A DNA stretch of 19,899 nucleotides, taken from NCBI GenBank assembly GCA_945952355.1, contig CAMFIW010000007.1, positions 1 to 19,899 of the forward strand, given 5' to 3'. A model generated the notes under the pieces. The model was not told the DNA's origin and searched no databases. It worked only from the letters and a program-made list of their open reading frames with translations. The translations under genes and the position numbers were made by a program. This DNA comes from an uncultured Phenylobacterium sp. GTDB taxonomy: Bacteria > Pseudomonadota > Alphaproteobacteria > Caulobacterales > Caulobacteraceae. This document shows, piece by piece, positions 6,686 through 18,240 of this stretch; positions within the stretch are counted from its first letter, which is position 1; each line of letters begins with the position of its first letter.

Positions 6686-7440
6686 GCTTCATCAAAAATA
6701 TGGTCGTGGCCGCCCAGGCGGCCCGGCCGCCAATAGCCCTCGGCCGAGATCTGCGCCTTGTCGAACCCGCGAGCCAGCAAGCCGCGGCGGATCGTGCGCA
6801 CCGTGCTGGTCTCGCCGATCACATAGGCCTGGCCGCGACCGGGCGGCGGGGCGAACAGCGACATCCGCTCGATCAGCGGCAGGCTGGCCGGAACCGCCGG
6901 GCCGTTGCGCACCAGCCACTCCAGGTCGAGATCGCAATCGGCGTCGAGGTACTGGCGGTCGTCCTTGTCCTCGACCTCGACGAAGGCGAAGGCCCGCGCA
7001 CGGCGGGGCAGGGTCTCCAGCATGGCGAAGATGCCCGGCAGACAGGTTTCGTCGCCGACGAAGACGTGCCAGTCGGCCTCAGGGTTCAGCACGGTGCGGC
7101 CGCGGGGGCCGCGGGCCTCCAGGCGATCGCCGGGGCGGGCGTTGAGCGCGAAGCGTTCGCCCGGACCGTGGTGGCCGTGGATCACGAAGTCGATGGTCAC
7201 CTCGCCCGGCGCCGCGTCGCGGATCGTGTAGTGGCGGCGATGCAGCTCGCCCTCGGCGTCGGGGACCAGCAGGGCGAGGTCCTGGCCGGCGCGATAGTCG
7301 AGCAAGCCGTCCATGTCGAAGGTCAGGCGGCGCATGTGGGCCGTCAGGTCCTGCACCCCGCGCAGGGTCAGTTCATGGAGGGGAAGCGGCGGCCGCGCCG
7401 GCCTGGCCCAGGCTTCGGGCGCTTGTTGGAGAGGTTGCAT
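6682..7440 (-). CDS. Siderophore-interacting protein (FAD-dependent ferric-siderophore reductase)
   Basis: This 252-residue cytoplasmic flavoprotein belongs to the SIP/ViuB family, which releases iron by reducing imported ferric siderophores. RRHYTIRD (68-75) is the FAD-binding R-x-Y-S/T motif, GDETCLPGIFAMLETLP (129-145) matches the SIP-specific domain, and YVIGETSTVRTIRRGLL (206-222) with ISAEGYWRPGR near the C terminus completes it. The ATG at 7440 has AGGA about 6 nt upstream; longer in-frame starts would add an unrelated 52-residue tail reading through the promoter region. No siderophore receptor or PadR regulator is next to it. It diverges from the his leader, and no clear Fur box is visible upstream. 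Confidence 0.88.
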   Translation of the reverse strand: MQPLQQAPEAWARPARPPLPLHELTLRGVQDLTAHMRRLTFDMDGLLDYRAGQDLALLVPDAEGELHRRHYTIRDAAPGEVTIDFVIHGHHGPGERFALNARPGDRLEARGPRGRTVLNPEADWHVFVGDETCLPGIFAMLETLPRRARAFAFVEVEDKDDRQYLDADCDLDLEWLVRNGPAVPASLPLIERMSLFAPPPGRGQAYVIGETSTVRTIRRGLLARGFDKAQISAEGYWRPGRLGGHDHIFDEA

Positions 7441-7453
7441 GTCGATCCTATCT

Positions 7454-7492
7454 AGACTGTTCTTGATATATCGAAACACAGACGAGACTGTT
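7454..7492. promoter_or_regulatory. Repeats in the SIP/his divergent intergenic region
   Basis: The 108-bp spacer between the SIP gene and the his leader peptide holds two direct copies of AGACTGTT (7454-7461 and 7485-7492, 31 bp apart) flanking the palindrome GATATATC (7465-7472). Unlike its surroundings it is AT-rich. These are plausible protein-binding sites for the SIP promoter, but I cannot assign -35 and -10 boxes with confidence for either direction. Confidence 0.3.
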
Positions 7493-7548
7493 TCGCAAGT
7501 GGGAGCGGACTCGCGTTTTGCAAAGGGCTGGGCTATGAGGCGCGCCGC

Positions 7549-7626
7549 ATGACCCGCCGCGCGCACCATCACGGCCATCACCATCCGACCTGCCATCGCG
7601 GGATCGGCCGAGGCTGCGCGAACTAG
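7549..7626 (+). CDS. hisL: Histidine-rich leader peptide of the hisSZG operon
   Basis: A 25-codon ORF begins MTRRAHHHGHHHPTCH and ends at TAG 7624-7626. Seven of its codons are His (residues 6-8, 10-12, 16), six of them within seven positions. GAGG (7537-7540) stands 8 nt before the ATG, a good ribosome-binding distance. It lies 154 bp upstream of hisS on the same strand, and is followed at once by stable hairpins. A His-codon run after a short MTR start is the hallmark of his attenuator leaders such as the enterobacterial HisL. The role would be to let ribosomes sense charged tRNA-His. It is too short for ordinary gene callers. Identification rests on composition and position, with no measured expression. 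Confidence 0.8.
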   Translation: MTRRAHHHGHHHPTCHRGIGRGCAN

Positions 7627-7704
7627 GCGGCCTCAGGCGCCGGGCCCCGCAAACGCGGATGGGGCCCTGACCGCCGGCTCCATCCCTGAGACACCACCAG
7701 GGAT
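7626..7704 (+). promoter_or_regulatory. Candidate histidine attenuator: two hairpins with a competing pairing
   Basis: Hairpin 1 pairs GGGCCCC (7642-7648) with GGGGCCC (7661-7667), extended by GGCGG (7626-7630) with CCGCC (7671-7675) and TCA/TGA between. Hairpin 2 pairs ATCCCTG (7682-7688) with CAGGGAT (7698-7704). A competing helix, GGATGG (7657-7662) with CCATCC (7680-7685), would break both, and the same GGATGG can also pair with CCATCC at 7581-7586 inside the His codons. GAGGC/GCCTC (7610-7614 with 7630-7634) is a further alternative around the leader stop codon. No T-tract follows either hairpin, so Rho or translation control is more likely than simple intrinsic termination. Which state is 'on' cannot be decided by eye. 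Confidence 0.55.
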
Positions 7705-7711
7705 CAGAACC

Positions 7712-7771
7712 ATGACCGACCTTTCCCCGAAACCGCTGCGCCGCCTTGCCGCGCGCGCCTGCTTGGCCTAG
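7712..7771 (+). CDS. Second short upstream ORF, in frame with hisS
   Basis: A 19-codon ORF (MTDLSPKPLRRLAARACLA) runs from ATG 7712 to TAG 7769-7771. Its likely Shine-Dalgarno AGGGA (7699-7703), 8 nt before the ATG, lies inside the 3' arm of attenuator hairpin 2. The hisS ATG follows 9 nt after its stop and in the same frame, so terminating ribosomes could restart at hisS, whose own site (AGGCGAG) is weak. It contains no His codon. The product may have no function of its own and may serve only as a coupling device. Alternatively it is chance. Confidence 0.45.
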   Translation: MTDLSPKPLRRLAARACLA

Positions 7772-7780
7772 GCGAGCGCC

Positions 7781-9247
7781 ATGTCCGAAGCTTCCTCCCG
7801 ACCCGAAGCCCGCGCCCCGCGCGGCTTCCTCGACCGCCGCGCCCGCGACCTCGCCGCCGAGCGCGCCATCCTGGCCAAGGTCAGCGCCGTCTATGAGCGC
7901 TATGGCTTCGAGGCCCTCGACACCGGCGCGATGGAATATGCCGACGCGCTCGGCAAGTTCCTGCCCGACGCCGACCGTCCGAACGAGGGCGTCTTCGCCC
8001 TGCAGGACGACGACGAGCAGTGGATGGCCCTGCGCTACGACCTGACGGCGCCGCTGGCCCGCTTCGTGGCCCAGAACTGGGACGCCCTGCCCAAGCCGTT
8101 CCGCCGCTACGCTTTCGGTCCGGTGTGGCGCAACGAGAAGCCCGGCCCCGGCCGTTTCCGCGAATTCACCCAGTGCGACGCCGACACGGTGGGCTCGGCC
8201 CGTCCCGAGGCCGATGCCGAGATCATCGCCATGGCGTCCGAGGGCCTGTTCGCGGCCGGCCTGCCCGCCGGGGCGGCGATCCTGAAGATCAACAATCGTA
8301 AGCTGCTGAACGGCCTGCTGGCCACGGCCGGCGTCGAAAGCGAGGGCCAGAAACTCGCCGTGCTCCGGGCGGTCGACAAGCTGGACCGACTGGGCCCGGA
8401 CGGCGTGCGCCTGTTGCTGGGCGAGGGCCGCAAGGACGAGTCGGGCGCCTTCACCAAGGGCGCGGGCCTCGCGGCCAAGGCGGCCGAGGCCGTGCTGGCC
8501 TTCACCGCCGCCGGAGCCGGTGGCCGCTCCGAGACGCTCGACCGCATCGCCGACGTGATCGGAGGCTCGCCCGAGGGCGACGAGGGGCTGGAGGAGCTGC
8601 GCCGCATCGACCAGGCCCTTAGCGGCCTTGGCGTCGGCCCGGACAAGGCGGTGTTCGACCCCTCGGTGGTGCGCGGCCTGGAGTACTATACGGGCGCAGT
8701 ATTCGAGGCCGAACTGCTGCTCTCGACCACGGACGAGAAGGGCGAGCCTGTGCGGTTCGGCTCGGTCGGCGGCGGCGGTCGCTATGACGACCTGGTGGCG
8801 CGGTTCACCGGCGAGCGGACGCCCGCGACGGGCTTCTCGTTCGGCGTCTCGCGCCTGGCCTCGGCCCTGCGCGCGGCCGGTCGGGACCTGGGCGCCCAGG
8901 CCCGTGGCCCAGTGGTGGTGATCGCCTTCAGCCAGGACGACATGGCCCAGTATTTCGGCGTGGTCAGCGAGCTGCGCTCGGCCGGCATCCCGGCTGAGGT
9001 CTATCTCGGAAGCTCGGGCATGAAGGCGCAGATGAAGTACGCCGACAGACGCCTGTCACCGGCCGCGATCATGCTGGGCGGCGACGAAATCCAGGCGGGG
9101 ACGGTGACGGTGAAGGATCTCGATCTCGGGCGCGAGCTGTCGGCCGGCGTGACCGACAACGCCGCCTGGCGCGCCGAGCGACCCGGCCAGCAGACGATCC
9201 CGCGGGCCGAGCTGATCCCGGCCCTGCGCCGCATCCTGGAGGCCTGA
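7781..9247 (+). CDS. hisS: Histidyl-tRNA synthetase
   Basis: This 488-residue class II synthetase attaches histidine to tRNA-His. It has motif 2 FRRYAFGPVWRNEKPGPGRF (starting at 107), the histidine-specific signature VRGLEYYTG (297-305) with the conserved R298, and motif 3 ATGFSFGVSRL (349-359), followed by an anticodon-binding domain with PAEVYLGSSG and QMKYADRR. The motif 2 loop reads NEKPGPGR rather than the E. coli HERPQKGR, as in the alphaproteobacterial group whose tRNA-His lacks G-1. It is the first large gene of the his operon; hisZ begins 3 nt after its stop. ATG 7781 is preferred; the in-frame ATG at 7712 is cut off by TAG at 7769. Confidence 0.96.
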   Translation: MSEASSRPEARAPRGFLDRRARDLAAERAILAKVSAVYERYGFEALDTGAMEYADALGKFLPDADRPNEGVFALQDDDEQWMALRYDLTAPLARFVAQNWDALPKPFRRYAFGPVWRNEKPGPGRFREFTQCDADTVGSARPEADAEIIAMASEGLFAAGLPAGAAILKINNRKLLNGLLATAGVESEGQKLAVLRAVDKLDRLGPDGVRLLLGEGRKDESGAFTKGAGLAAKAAEAVLAFTAAGAGGRSETLDRIADVIGGSPEGDEGLEELRRIDQALSGLGVGPDKAVFDPSVVRGLEYYTGAVFEAELLLSTTDEKGEPVRFGSVGGGGRYDDLVARFTGERTPATGFSFGVSRLASALRAAGRDLGAQARGPVVVIAFSQDDMAQYFGVVSELRSAGIPAEVYLGSSGMKAQMKYADRRLSPAAIMLGGDEIQAGTVTVKDLDLGRELSAGVTDNAAWRAERPGQQTIPRAELIPALRRILEA

Positions 9248-9250
9248 GCC

Positions 9251-10387
9251 ATGCGCGCCGAGGCTCCCGTTCCACCCGAGGCCCTGGCCGCCATCCGCGC
9301 GCCGTTCCAGGCGGCGGGGGCGGAGAGCGTCGACACCCCGATCCTCCAGCCTCTGGGCCTGCTGCTCGATTTGGCCGGGGAGGCCATGCGCGCCCGGCTG
9401 TTCGTGGTCCAGGCCGAGGGGGGCGAAGAGGCCTGCCTGCGGCCGGACTTCACCGTGCCGGTGGCGCGCCTGCACCTCGACCGCGGCGCCGAGGCCGGCC
9501 GCTACCTCTATGAGGGCAAGGTGTTCCGCGCCGCGCCGGACCAGCCGGACCGGCCGGAGGAGTTCCTCCAGATCGGGCTGGAGCGCTTCGACACCGGCGG
9601 GGTCTCGGCCGAGGCGGATGCCGAGATCGTGGCGTTGGCCTGGCGTGCGGCCGTCGCCGGCGGGCGAAGCGACCTTTCGCTGTGGCTGGGCGATATCGCC
9701 TTGTTCGCCGCCTTCGTGGACGGCCTGGACCTCACGCCTGCGCTCGCCGCGCGCCTGAAGCGCGCCGCGGCCCGTCCGCGCTTGCTACAGGGCGAACTGG
9801 CTCGCGCGGGCCAACCGCCGTCGGCGAACGAGCCCGGCGGGTTGGCGGCGCTGCTGTCCTCCCTGTCGCCGGTCGATGCGGGGCGGATGCTGGAAGAGGT
9901 CTGGGCGCTGGCGGGAATTGAGCCGGTGGGCGGCCGGGGGCCGACCGAGATCGCCGAGCGCCTGATCCGCCGCGCCGAGGCGGCCAGCGCGCCGGCCCTG
10001 ACCCTCGACCAGGCCGAGGCCCTGAGACGCTTCCTGGCGATCGAGGCCGAGCCGGCCGATGCGCTGGAGGCCGTGGCCGGCCTGGCGGGTCCGAAGTCAA
10101 AGGCCCTGAAGGCGGCCCTGAAAGGCTGGACCGACCGTCTCGCCAAACTGAGCGAGGCCGGGGCGCCGATCGCCCATGCCCGGTTCGCGACCGCCCTGGG
10201 TCATGCCTTCGACTACTATGACGGCCTGACCTTCGAGATCCGCTCGGCCGCGTTGGGCGCGGATCGGCCGATCGCGGTGGGCGGCCGCTATGACAGCCTG
10301 CCGACCCGCCTGGGCGGCCCCGCCGATGCCCGCGCCGTGGGCTGCATGGTCCGGCCGCGCCGGGCGCTTTCGGAGACCGCGCGATGA
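9251..10387 (+). CDS. hisZ: ATP phosphoribosyltransferase regulatory subunit
   Basis: HisZ is a catalytically inactive HisRS paralogue that binds the short form of HisG and makes it active and histidine-sensitive. The 378-residue product keeps the synthetase fold (LRPDFTVPVARLHL, YLYEGKVFR at 85-93, QIGLERFDTGG, and AFDYYDGLTFEI from 319) but ends after VGCMVRPRRAL without an anticodon-binding domain. It also lacks the V-R-G-L-x-Y-Y signature Arg, having AFDYYDG there, as expected for HisZ. It starts 3 nt after hisS and overlaps hisG by 4 nt (ATGA), so the three are translationally coupled. Having hisS and its paralogue side by side is consistent with origin by tandem duplication. Confidence 0.93.
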   Translation: MRAEAPVPPEALAAIRAPFQAAGAESVDTPILQPLGLLLDLAGEAMRARLFVVQAEGGEEACLRPDFTVPVARLHLDRGAEAGRYLYEGKVFRAAPDQPDRPEEFLQIGLERFDTGGVSAEADAEIVALAWRAAVAGGRSDLSLWLGDIALFAAFVDGLDLTPALAARLKRAAARPRLLQGELARAGQPPSANEPGGLAALLSSLSPVDAGRMLEEVWALAGIEPVGGRGPTEIAERLIRRAEAASAPALTLDQAEALRRFLAIEAEPADALEAVAGLAGPKSKALKAALKGWTDRLAKLSEAGAPIAHARFATALGHAFDYYDGLTFEIRSAALGADRPIAVGGRYDSLPTRLGGPADARAVGCMVRPRRALSETAR

Positions 10388-11337
10388 GCGAGCCCTTGAT
10401 CCTCGCCATCCCGTCCAAGGGCCGCCTGAAGGAACAGGTAGAGGAATGGCTGTACGATTGCGGACTGAAACTGTCCGTGGCCGGCGGCGCGCGCGGCTAC
10501 ATGGCCGAGCTGAAGGGTGTCGCCGGGGTGCAGGTGCGCCTGCTCTCGGCCGGCGATATCGCCGAGGCGCTGGATACTGGCGAGGCGCATCTGGGCGTCA
10601 CCGGCGAGGATCTGCTGCGCGAGCGTGGCGGTGACCTCGATTCGCGGGTCCTCCTGCTACGGGCCCTGGGTTTTGGCCGCGCCGACCTGGTGGTGGCCGT
10701 GCCCAAAAGCTGGCTTGACGTCGAGACCATGGCCGATCTGGAGGAGGTGGCCCACGACGTCCTGGCCAGAAGCGGCCGGCGGATGCGGGTGGCGACCAAG
10801 TACCTGGCCCAGACCCGCGCCTTCTTCGCCCGTCACGGGGTGGCGGACTATCGGATCACCGAGTCCAACGGCGCCACCGAGGGTGCGCCCGCAGCCGGCG
10901 CCGCCGAGCTGGTGGTGGACATCACCACTACGGGGGCCACCCTGGTGGCCAATGGGCTGAAGGTGCTTTCGGATGGAACGATCCTGCGCAGCCAGGCCCA
11001 GCTGGCTGCCGCCCTCCGCGCCGATTGGGGGGCGGGCCAGCTCAAGGCGGCCGAACAGCTCCTGCGAATCCTGGAAGCGCGGGCCACGGCCCACGAGAGC
11101 GCGACCCTGGTCTGGCCGCCCGGAAAGAACGACGAGGCTCTGGTCGAGGCCTTGGTCGCGGATGGCGCGGTGAGACGGCCAAACGGCCTGCTTGCGCCTG
11201 TCGAGAAGATCGCCCGGGTGGCGGAGATCCTGACGGCGGCCGGTCTCGGCCCGGTCACCGCCTCGCGGCCGGACTTCGTTTTTGACACCGGGTGTCCCGC
11301 CTTCGAAGCTCTACAAGCCCGAACGGTCAAAAACTGA
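10384..11337 (+). CDS. hisG: ATP phosphoribosyltransferase catalytic subunit
   Basis: HisG catalyses the first step of histidine synthesis, joining ATP and PRPP. The N-terminal LAIPSKGRLKEQ, LGVTGEDLLRE and the PRPP-binding motif E175-LVVDITTTGATL are all present, and the presence of HisZ indicates the short-form HisG. The protein is 317 residues, however, about 80 more than typical short forms. The extra C-terminal part (about 235-317, with LAPVEKIARVAEILTAAGLG) does not look like the ACT-like domain of long-form HisG by eye. The ATG overlaps the hisZ stop. The operon is probably controlled by the histidine leader upstream and by feedback through HisZ. Confidence 0.93.
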   Translation: MSEPLILAIPSKGRLKEQVEEWLYDCGLKLSVAGGARGYMAELKGVAGVQVRLLSAGDIAEALDTGEAHLGVTGEDLLRERGGDLDSRVLLLRALGFGRADLVVAVPKSWLDVETMADLEEVAHDVLARSGRRMRVATKYLAQTRAFFARHGVADYRITESNGATEGAPAAGAAELVVDITTTGATLVANGLKVLSDGTILRSQAQLAAALRADWGAGQLKAAEQLLRILEARATAHESATLVWPPGKNDEALVEALVADGAVRRPNGLLAPVEKIARVAEILTAAGLGPVTASRPDFVFDTGCPAFEALQARTVKN

Positions 11338-11553
11338 CGCATACGTCAAAAAATGTACTCATTTGGGGCACAAAAAGCCCCGCTCTCGGAAATCTGATCG
11401 TTTTCCGGCGTCTGGAACCGTTCGGCGCCATTGACTCAGGGGAAGAATTGCCATCTTCATAGCCCTGCGAGAGACATGACGGCCTCAAGTCCATCAGTCT
11501 CCGGCGTTTCGGGGAGGAAACGCCCGCTCCACAAGAGCGAATAGCTCAAAATA
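11338..11553 (+). ncRNA. Structured, comparatively AT-rich intergenic region; possible small RNA
   Basis: There is no convincing protein gene between hisG and 11711. The stretch holds successive stem-loops: TGACG/CGTCA (11335-11348), GGGGC/GCCCC (11365-11381), CGGAAA/TTTCCG (11387-11407), CAGGGGAAGA with TCTTC...CCCTG (11437-11467), GGCGTTTC/GAAACGCC with loop GGGGAG (11503-11524) and CGCTC/GAGCG (11525-11539), followed by an intrinsic terminator. TTGACT at 11431 could be a -35 box, with an unclear -10 near TCTTCAT (11454-11460), giving an RNA of roughly 125 nt. Otherwise this is the 3' untranslated region of the his operon. It lacks the SRP RNA tetraloop region and I could not match it to 6S RNA or RNase P RNA. 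A 22-codon ORF at 11476-11544 is probably incidental. Confidence 0.4.
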
Positions 11554-11592
11554 GGCCCGCTGCGATTATCCCCCGCAGCGGGCCAAATTTTT
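11554..11592 (+). terminator. Strong intrinsic terminator
   Basis: GGCCCGCTGCG (11554-11564) and CGCAGCGGGCC (11574-11584) form a perfect 11-bp stem with a 9-nt loop, followed by AAATTTTT. It ends either the hisSZG transcript or a small RNA encoded just upstream. On the opposite strand the stem is followed by TATTTT, so it may also work in reverse. Confidence 0.85.
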
Positions 11593-11604
11593 GCCCGACG
11601 CTGG

Positions 11605-16972: not shown

Positions 16973-18240
16973 GTTTCGGCGGCCCGCCCGGCGAGCAGGG
17001 CCGAGGCTTCGCGGGCGGCGCCGATGGCGCTGGCGGCGGCCGCGTCAGAGAGCATGCCCGCGTCGCCCACCCAGTCGCCGGCCAGGAAGAGACCGGGCGC
17101 ATCCGCCACGATGACCGGCGTGCGGCGCCCCTCCGTACGCCAGCCCGGAAGATCGTGGGCGACCTGGATGCCGACCAGCCGCTGTTTGTGGACCAAGGCC
17201 TCCCGCCAATCCGGCCTCAGGCGGTCCGCCAGCCGCTCCAACTCCCGCAGGTGGACGGGATCGGGCGCTTCGTCAGGTGCGAGATAGCGGCCCAGATGTA
17301 GCAGGCCGCCGCCCGGCGGCGCCAACTCGGCCACCGCCGAATGGAGGGACAGGTAGGTCGGCGCATCCATGCCCAGCGCGAATTCCGCACCAGGCTCGGG
17401 GTTCGCGAGCCCGAGGTCGAGACCCATCATTCGCAAAGGCCGCGCCGCCTGTGCGGCGGTGGCGATGTCCCGTGAGTCGGCGACCAGGTCGCGCGCCGCC
17501 GTCGGCGAGGCGGCCAGGATGACGGCGTCGAAGGCTTGCGGCGCCTGGCCGGCGAATTCGAGCCGCCAAGCGTGATGTTCGCGCCGGATCGCCAAGACCC
17601 GATGTTCGGAACGCAGCACCGCGCCAGCGCTGGTCGCAGCCTGCGCCAGGCCTGCGATCAAGGCGCGCCAGCCCCCATCGACGTAGAGCACGCCGCCAAA
17701 GCTCAACCGCACCTGGTCCAGCGCCGCCTTGGCGTCGATCTCATCCGGCGCATGCGAATAGCTGGACACCCGCACCAGGGCCTCGATCACCATCCGCACC
17801 TTCCCCGGCAGGCCTTCGGTGAAGGCGCGCAGCGGGGCTCCGCGGTCGCCCGCGGCGCCTTCGCCGATCTGCGCCAGGACCTCGGCGAGACGGGCGCCTT
17901 CGGCTGGGTTCAGAGGCGCCGCGACGCGGCCGGCGGCGGGGCGGGTCGGCAGCGGATGGGCCACGTCTCCCCAGGTCGCCATGGCGCCGTCGAGGCGCAG
18001 CCGATGGCCGGAGACCGGCACGCCGAGCTCGGCAAGGACGGCATTGAAGGCGCCGCGCACATAGAGGGCGTGCGGACCCTGGTTGAAATGGAAGCCGTCG
18101 ACAATCCGCGTCTGGGCGCGTCCTCCGAGCTCGGGTGCGGCCTCGAACAGGCGAGGCTGCAACCCTTGGCGCGCCAGTGTCGCGGCCGCGACGAGACCGG
18201 CCACGCCGCCGCCGACGATGGCGATTTCCGCAGTTTTCAT
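16969..18240 (-). CDS. FAD-dependent amine-oxidase/phytoene-desaturase-like oxidoreductase
   Basis: The 423-residue protein has an N-terminal dinucleotide-binding site GGGVAGLVAA (10-19), the ELGGRAQT segment that contacts FAD in amine oxidases and carotenoid desaturases, and the C-terminal GLFLAGDWVGDAGMLSDAAA (383-402) closing the FAD site. The reaction is not predictable: relatives include phytoene desaturases, protoporphyrinogen oxidases and many uncharacterised proteins. GAGGG stands about 5 nt before the ATG. It diverges from the Rrf2 regulator across 56 bp containing two operators, so Rrf2 control of this gene is likely. The M13 gene follows on the same strand after 69 bp with its own possible promoter. 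Confidence 0.85.
   Translation of the reverse strand: MKTAEIAIVGGGVAGLVAAATLARQGLQPRLFEAAPELGGRAQTRIVDGFHFNQGPHALYVRGAFNAVLAELGVPVSGHRLRLDGAMATWGDVAHPLPTRPAAGRVAAPLNPAEGARLAEVLAQIGEGAAGDRGAPLRAFTEGLPGKVRMVIEALVRVSSYSHAPDEIDAKAALDQVRLSFGGVLYVDGGWRALIAGLAQAATSAGAVLRSEHRVLAIRREHHAWRLEFAGQAPQAFDAVILAASPTAARDLVADSRDIATAAQAARPLRMMGLDLGLANPEPGAEFALGMDAPTYLSLHSAVAELAPPGGGLLHLGRYLAPDEAPDPVHLRELERLADRLRPDWREALVHKQRLVGIQVAHDLPGWRTEGRRTPVIVADAPGLFLAGDWVGDAGMLSDAAAASAIGAAREASALLAGRAAET

Follow-up and report, generated by a model that had tools for sequence, protein, structure and literature searches.

Organization of the hisS-hisZ-hisG locus

The 19,899 bp stretch of DNA from an uncultured Phenylobacterium sp. 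that we analyzed as a whole (referred to here as the window) contains the genes hisS, hisZ and hisG, preceded by two short open reading frames and two promoter-like elements, as follows:

7532..7539, + strand: P1, a −10-like element (GCTATGAG) with a CTANR motif before the leader start
7549..7626, + strand: leader ORF of 25 codons, MTRRAHHHGHHHPTCHRGIGRGCAN, from the list of ORFs and its translation
7712..7771, + strand: second short ORF of 19 codons, MTDLSPKPLRRLAARACLA, in frame with hisS and with its stop 9 nt before hisS
7745..7772, + strand: P2, a promoter-like pair of CTTGCC (7745–7750) and CCTAGG (7767–7772), 8 nt before hisS
7781..9247, + strand: hisS, histidine--tRNA ligase (NCBIfam TIGR00442, 381 bits, cut-off 286.75)
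9251..10387, + strand: hisZ, ATP phosphoribosyltransferase regulatory subunit (NCBIfam NF008949, 530.8 bits, cut-off 420)
10384..11337, + strand: hisG, ATP phosphoribosyltransferase (NCBIfam TIGR00070, 168.4 bits, cut-off 75.75)

A match to the Caulobacter sRNA CrfA (RF01527, 61.3 bits) is present just past hisG at 11469–11594 on the + strand.

The leader ORF contains seven His codons, at 7564–7572, 7576–7584 and 7594–7596, and agrees with an earlier note on this DNA that had proposed a 25-codon leader with seven His codons here. The sequence CAYCAYCAYNNNCAYCAYCAY, with the codon pattern HHHxHHH, has a single forward-strand occurrence in 3.69 Mb of assembly (completeness 74%), and in the same 3.69 Mb it is absent from the reverse strand and from a backward-read control. 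Scanning of all six frames of the whole window identifies just one stretch of eight codons with at least six His codons, and a comparable stretch arises in none of 20,000 same-strand mononucleotide shuffles of the 350 nt preceding hisS.

The leader is conserved and associated with hisZ and hisG

We compared 189 regions upstream of hisS, 79 of them from named loci (80 less L061, whose sequence begins at the gene itself) and the remaining 110 from other family genomes, the window's own included; some genomes are represented in both sets, and two loci (L053 and L082) have less than 60 nt of upstream sequence. A His leader, taken as at least four His codons within eight, is present in 117 of these regions and absent from 72. 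Measured from the nearest start codon at least three codons ahead of the His run, the 104 unique leaders are 23–26 codons long, contain four to eight His codons, and begin with ATG (99) or GTG (5). The His-rich ORF before hisS is real and conserved, and both the His run and the pairings described below, on whose conservation the earlier note had staked its reading, are retained in relatives.

By record title, the leader-bearing named loci belong to Phenylobacterium, to Caulobacter, and to Caulobacterales or Proteobacteria with less precise names; among named loci with enough sequence, a His leader is missing from all 20 of Brevundimonas and all five of Asticcacaulis. In all 35 named leader loci whose sequence extends far enough, hisZ and hisG are the next genes (two more lacked room), whereas among the 42 named loci without a leader at least part of hisZ is next in 11 and absent in 31; discounting L053 and L082, both among the 31, gives 11 of 40 testable loci. 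The association has a Fisher p of 5e-12, with related species counted separately and so not independent. Because hisZ and hisG are next in 35 of 35 loci with the leader versus 11 of 40 without, the leader goes with the biosynthetic genes and not with hisS as such.

Predicted transcription and translation starts of the leader

The CTANR motif ends 8–12 nt before the start codon in 96 of the 104 unique leaders, compared with 96 of 2131 other ATG or GTG codons in the same regions, scored over the same range of distances. In the window, GACTCG at 7508–7513 may be the −35 element of P1, from which the transcript is predicted to start at approximately 7549.

The leader had been described as having a good Shine-Dalgarno sequence (SD), and a GAGG is indeed present at 7537–7540; however, it lies within GCTATGAGG, the site of the conserved −10-like motif of the relatives, most of which have no SD. 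SD cores are found ahead of only five of the 104 unique leaders, one of them the window's own, whose GAGG falls in the tested range, and this rules out a conserved SD across the family, although the GAGG could act as an SD for the window's copy. We read the leader mRNA as probably leaderless because of the placement of CTANR, the rarity of SD cores and two precedents: C. crescentus is reported to have 375 leaderless mRNAs that are translated about as well as others (PMC4117421), and the S. meliloti trpL mRNA is likewise reported to be leaderless.

Six segments and two alternative sets of helices

Six segments in and after the leader ORF have the potential to pair:

7586..7591, + strand: R0, pairing with R1 in a leader hairpin just past the His run (predicted by RNAalifold with no structure supplied)
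7598..7606, + strand: R1, GCGGGATCG, partner of R0 or R2 (R1:R2, 89.7% of cells paired)
7642..7650, + strand: R2, GGGCCCCGC, partner of R1 or R3 (pairing in the alignment)
7655..7667, + strand: R3, GCGGATGGGGCCC (R3:R4, 97.5% of cells paired)
7676..7690, + strand: R4, GGCTCCATCCCTGAG, partner of R3 or R5 (pairing in the alignment and folding of the window)
7698..7707, + strand: R5, CAGGGATCAG, containing the SD-like AGGGA (7699–7703) of the start at 7712 (folding of the R4-to-start segment)

Two hairpins in the window (7642–7648/7661–7667 and 7682–7688/7698–7704) and a rival helix of GGATGG (7657–7662) with CCATCC (7680–7685) that overlaps both are all present as the earlier note had described them. 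The predicted R0:R1 pairing inside the leader adds a sixth segment that was absent from that account; one of its pairs, 42:60, is GC in 35 of 55 sequences, CG in 11 and other in nine.

These counts come from an alignment (A1) of 55 sequences no more than 90% alike, reduced from 56 by removal of L043, which contains an insertion. RNAalifold, run unguided on this alignment, predicts R0:R1 and R3:R4. The combination of R1:R2 and R3:R4 has 94.5% of its cells paired, compared with at most 58.6% for slid versions, and that of R2:R3 and R4:R5 has 83.6%, compared with at most 46.4%, although a structure derived from a consensus tends to beat its slid versions anyway. For R2:R3 with R4:R5, two of five measures are no higher than in shuffles, with 305 of 500 shuffles being as high for double-change pairs and 373 of 500 for pair types. 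Covariation is thin, as most other helix pairs barely vary, and comes mainly from pair 134:162 in R3:R4, the clearest compensating change (UA 27, CG 22, unpaired 5, gap 1; n=55). On a hisS tree this pair switches four times at best and once on supported branches, which is not significant; the tree scripts mis-located R4 in some rows, and the alignment counts are preferred. Over five helices there are 81 G-U cells versus 33 A-C cells, which favors the sense strand, with R1:R2 running against the trend (seven A-C and one G-U). As modeled, R0–R5 form two mutually exclusive sets of helices, and these are conserved in relatives.

A covariance search of the 72 regions without a leader gave one match clearly above chance, in L137 (122–274, − strand), where R1–R4 are retained but neither the promoter nor the leader's His half is, leaving a broken attenuator before hisS. 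In L043, from one Caulobacter MAG, inspection by eye indicates that approximately 90 nt have been inserted between R2 and R3 (about 2825–2915).

The last hairpin and the likely regulatory output

Folding of the window places the SD of the next start within the last hairpin, at 7682–7704. The R4-to-start segment was long enough for folding in 47 of the 55 aligned sequences (eight were dropped as too short), and relative to shuffles these have a mean z of −1.87, with z below −1 in 41 and at or below 0 in 45; in 42 of them, 60% or more of the best SD five-mer is paired. When a list of SD cores was applied to the 104 unique leaders none was found before the first ATG past R4 in 32, including the window, whose AGGGA is not on the list. 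No terminator-like site is present in 7400–7850 of the window, and among the 98 parsed leaders (of the 104 unique) a T-run of at least four after R3 is absent from 97 and present in one; an intrinsic terminator with a U-tract before hisS was rejected on these results. Because the last hairpin is predicted to hide the SD and there is no U-tract, translation is the likely output. The missing U-tract had been taken earlier to indicate either a Rho-dependent or a translational variant, and a translational output, as opposed to intrinsic termination, is the part of that suggestion that the hidden SD and the lack of a terminator bear out.

Blocked translation of a stretch of mRNA commonly invites Rho, and with no intrinsic terminator and an untranslated stretch as a target, the histidine leader could act chiefly through Rho-dependent termination before hisS, with the hiding of the SD a side effect. 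We consider this unlikely, as the SD is paired in 42 of 47 his segments and, over half or more of its window, in the 15 of 15 foldable thrS- and asd-type loci described below, and in Caulobacter the hairpin lies directly against the hisS start, where Rho would have little space to act.

A translational switch should also make the start region harder to open when the leader is read to its end. Opening the SD and start region is calculated to be on average 3.2 kcal/mol dearer with the ribosome on the stop codon than with it on the fourth His codon (n=104), and the difference is greater than 1 kcal/mol in 88 of the 104 leaders and less than −1 in eight. Shuffling the 3' part of the leader reduces the mean difference to 1.7; the natural value exceeds the median shuffle in 84 of 104 leaders and all 12 shuffles in 13. 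For the window itself the difference is about zero (11.4 vs 11.5), and the ON fold is computed to be less stable than the OFF fold by 4.1 kcal/mol when the ribosome sits on the fourth His codon and by 2.0 kcal/mol when it sits on the sixth. Equilibrium folding of the window's leader does not favor the ON state on stalling, and because of this the switch in the window, as modeled, must rest on the order of cotranscriptional folding, or else is weak.

A second short ORF and a putative second promoter

The SD that the last hairpin is predicted to hide is that of the 19-codon ORF at 7712–7771, which the earlier note missed. A near-identical MAG (L003) has the same arrangement. In the Caulobacter-type loci that we read, the start past R5 is generally in the hisS frame and close to hisS; in Phenylobacterium it is about 50–100 nt further upstream and begins a short ORF, which can run into hisS as a fusion, overlap it through ATGA, or end a short distance ahead of it; these relations are noisy, having been parsed in 72 of 104 leaders with some placed at an ATG within R3. 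A role for this ORF as a second amino-acid sensor was considered and rejected, as it lacks a run of regulatory codons and, in the relatives, the corresponding stretch holds the −10-like box of P2.

P2-like pairs in the relatives consist of CTTGnn and a TAAG- or TAGG-like box, at an almost constant position ahead of the hisS ATG. In 41 leader loci the upstream element is CTTG[ACG] in 34, CTTGTG in six and neither in one (L104); these loci were preselected as having a −10-like box ahead of a hisS start well past R5, and only the CTTG is an independent sign. In a control set of 72 loci without a leader, the −10-like box is found in 18 and the box together with CTTG[ACG] in two, and several hisZG loci without the leader have, by eye, a similar pair before hisS. 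The sequences suggest that P2 is a second promoter giving a leaderless, attenuator-free hisS mRNA in this genus. The idea that HisRS is controlled together with HisZG in a single loop consequently survives in its link of the leader to hisS-hisZ-hisG, but is weakened as the only control of HisRS, with the promoter-like P2 placed directly before hisS.

An antisense match to CC3513

One Rfam match, which the earlier note did not have, overlaps the leader on the opposite strand:

7492..7660, − strand: match to RF01528 (CC3513), scoring 31.8 bits (E 4e-4) and falling short of the 40-bit gathering threshold

Three Caulobacter-type relatives score 121–135 bits with the same model, which matches at E ≤0.01 in 24 of 119 family genomes and above the cut-off in 14 of 119. 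All 24 places are just before hisS on the opposite strand, and among 14 control genomes only C. vibrioides has a match, above the cut-off. CC3513 is the reverse complement of the His leader region; the locus is the same, and Rfam annotates the other strand, as an sRNA. CC3513 is said to have been reported as an sRNA by Landt et al. in 2008. Among the ncRNAs reported in that year only CrfA had been characterized further according to the text of a 2018 paper (PMC5988900), and none of the text matches listed for CC3513 concerns the sRNA by its title. The strand or identity of RF01528 needs re-examination.

These matches, in the window and in relatives and consistently opposite to and before hisS in 24 of 119 family genomes, as well as in the C. 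vibrioides control, raise the question of whether the conserved element is the sRNA CC3513 itself, with the sense ORF incidental, or whether an antisense RNA controls the leader. We think either is quite improbable, because the features of the sense strand – the narrow range of ORF lengths, the promoter-like box before the ATG, and the excess of G-U over A-C cells – explain the conservation, and the His codons use both CAC (392) and CAT (241).

Leaders of similar layout upstream of thrS- and asd-like genes

At E ≤0.01, a covariance model of the His leader (model R1, in which one R0:R1 pair is misplaced, at 44:58 instead of 44:57) has matches in 11 of the 385 genomes of the class, one of them the window's. 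The other ten matches are five Thr-rich leaders preceding thrS-like genes (a near-identical pair from one genus among them), three Thr/Lys leaders before asd-like genes, and two without an assigned target (L198 and one in G357). A search of the order matched 33 of 249 genomes; among the places listed, eight have Thr/Lys/Ile leaders in front of asd-like genes, and the one in G585 looks unrelated. NCBIfam searches with five protein starts identify asd above the cut-off for L202, L204 and L217, and thrS as the best family, below the cut-off, for the fragments in L199 and L203; the other thrS- and asd-like targets were named by eye. Thr or Thr/Lys leader ORFs of similar layout are seen in L199–L206, L217–L222, L224, L225 and part of L228–L248; the earlier note had no such relatives.

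A second covariance model (model R2), built from nine thrS- and asd-type leaders, matches in 56 of 385 class genomes. Its 22 loci include two that repeat earlier places and 19 long enough to read, 11 of which are before thrS- or asd-like genes, one (L247) before a gene that by eye is dapA-like, and seven unassigned. Model R2 recovers hisS leaders elsewhere (L118, E 1.8e-7), and on the window's own leader it gives 10.7 bits (E 0.49), no better than at 17752–17883 of the window (11.4 bits). Seventeen of 20 listed thrS- and asd-type loci were parsed for terminators and folding (L241, L247 and L248 were left out) and the outcomes counted by hand: a T-run of at least four follows R3 in seven of the 17, and in all 15 foldable loci half or more of the SD window is paired, with z below −1 in 10 of the 15.

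In the window's own genome no asd leader was seen by eye in L227. A possible further leader, MLRLATIIRTMKTTSLAGLGGSRRHAG, is present in L196 (G000:C284:4640–4786, + strand), where the contig ends before a target, and a weak covariance match, L194, may be an ordinary terminator.

That leaders with Thr or Lys codons and much the same layout precede thrS- and asd-like genes also bears on the possibility that the peptide itself acts. Clusters of His residues can bind metals, and the leader peptide could do so with the RNA folds being unrelated to control; the link to hisZG, the conserved helices and the Thr and Lys versions make this very hard to credit. We propose, tentatively and with rather less than even confidence, that there is one alphaproteobacterial family of elements, each with a leaderless leader ORF, segments R0–R5 and an SD-hiding hairpin, which has been retuned by codon swaps, with His for hisS-hisZ-hisG, Thr for thrS and Thr/Lys(/Ile) for asd. 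Some members would add an R2:R3 terminator and others, including that in the window, would act through translation alone, and CC3513 would be either a by-product of the His member or its antisense partner. The likeness of the thrS, asd and his elements could be due either to shared descent or to shared design.

Discussion

The his attenuator of E. coli and Salmonella has six segments, A–F, with alternative pairings. The element described here resembles it in having a short leader with a His run, a six-segment chain of alternative pairings, and control of early histidine synthesis. Unlike the E. coli attenuator it has no U-tract terminator, its last hairpin is predicted to hide an SD, its leader ORF is probably leaderless, and the operon is hisS-hisZ-hisG. 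Neither the Rfam his leader model nor the T-box model matches anywhere in the window at gathering scores, or in 7480–7830 at E values up to 1.

Among other known systems, S. meliloti trpL/rnTrpL differs in its Trp codons and its transcription terminator. S. meliloti SEP5, reported as an sORF that has six Thr and three Lys codons and lies within the 5'-UTR of an "aspartate dehydrogenase" gene (PMC10117765), is probably of the asd leader type that we found by covariance search, and differs from the His leader in its codons and its target. Combination of a leader peptide with a hairpin over the ribosome-binding site has been named as an existing variant (PMC9413887), and in the actinobacterial LEU elements Leu codons are described as paired with the leuA SD (PMC1262725); the window shares with such translational attenuators a leader of regulatory codons and a predicted hairpin over the next SD. 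His-leader attenuators have also been reported before the HisRS-family genes hisS* and hisZ of Bacillus (PMC2965389), and although these too place a His leader before HisRS-family genes, they are in Firmicutes and were found through their terminators. Ribosome profiling of C. crescentus revealed leader CDSs before trpS and ilv genes, with no mention of hisS in the main text (PMC4117421), and hisS is not mentioned in the main texts of PMC4287350, PMC11005374, PMC12559287 or PMC5988900. Among the titles, beginnings of abstracts and passages covered by our literature searches, none describes a translational leader attenuator for hisS-hisZ-hisG or in the Caulobacteraceae; Vitreschak 2004 and Lopatovskaya 2010 may overlap with the present work.

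The leader ORF, its length, its His codons, the pairings, the promoter-like motifs and the gene order are all conserved, and we put the probability that the element is a ribosome-mediated histidine attenuator with translation as its output at roughly 0.75. Much of the histidine attenuator proposed earlier is retained in this reading, namely a sensing leader, competing helices and the link to hisS-hisZ-hisG, but translation of the leader from an SD and a HisRS governed by the loop alone are both made less likely.

From these features we infer start sites, stalling, switching, re-initiation and a Rho step that would operate together as follows. RNA polymerase would start at or next to the leader ATG, and ribosomes would load on the leaderless message. 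When charged tRNA-His is low, a ribosome would stall in the His run and cover R0, freeing R1 to pair with R2; R3:R4 would then form, leaving R5 and its SD open so that the start behind R5 can be used. This start would be that at 7712 in the window, and generally that of hisS itself in Caulobacter, and its use would lead to translation of hisS-hisZ-hisG, in the window presumably by way of the 19-codon ORF with re-initiation 9 nt past its end. When histidine is sufficient, a ribosome reaching the stop codon would disturb R1, such that R2:R3 and R4:R5 form and conceal the SD, after which Rho may terminate the untranslated RNA. P2 at 7745–7772 may, in this genus, yield a leaderless hisS mRNA, providing a supply of HisRS that bypasses the switch.

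If this reading is correct, charging of tRNA-His and the first step of histidine synthesis would be under a single translational switch in Caulobacter and Phenylobacterium, and an Rfam sRNA of unclear role would gain a concrete interpretation that is testable in C. crescentus. The element would also provide a simple test case for leaderless mRNAs as amino-acid sensors. The relatives before thrS and asd point to a solution common to the class, one that differs from that of the enterobacteria.
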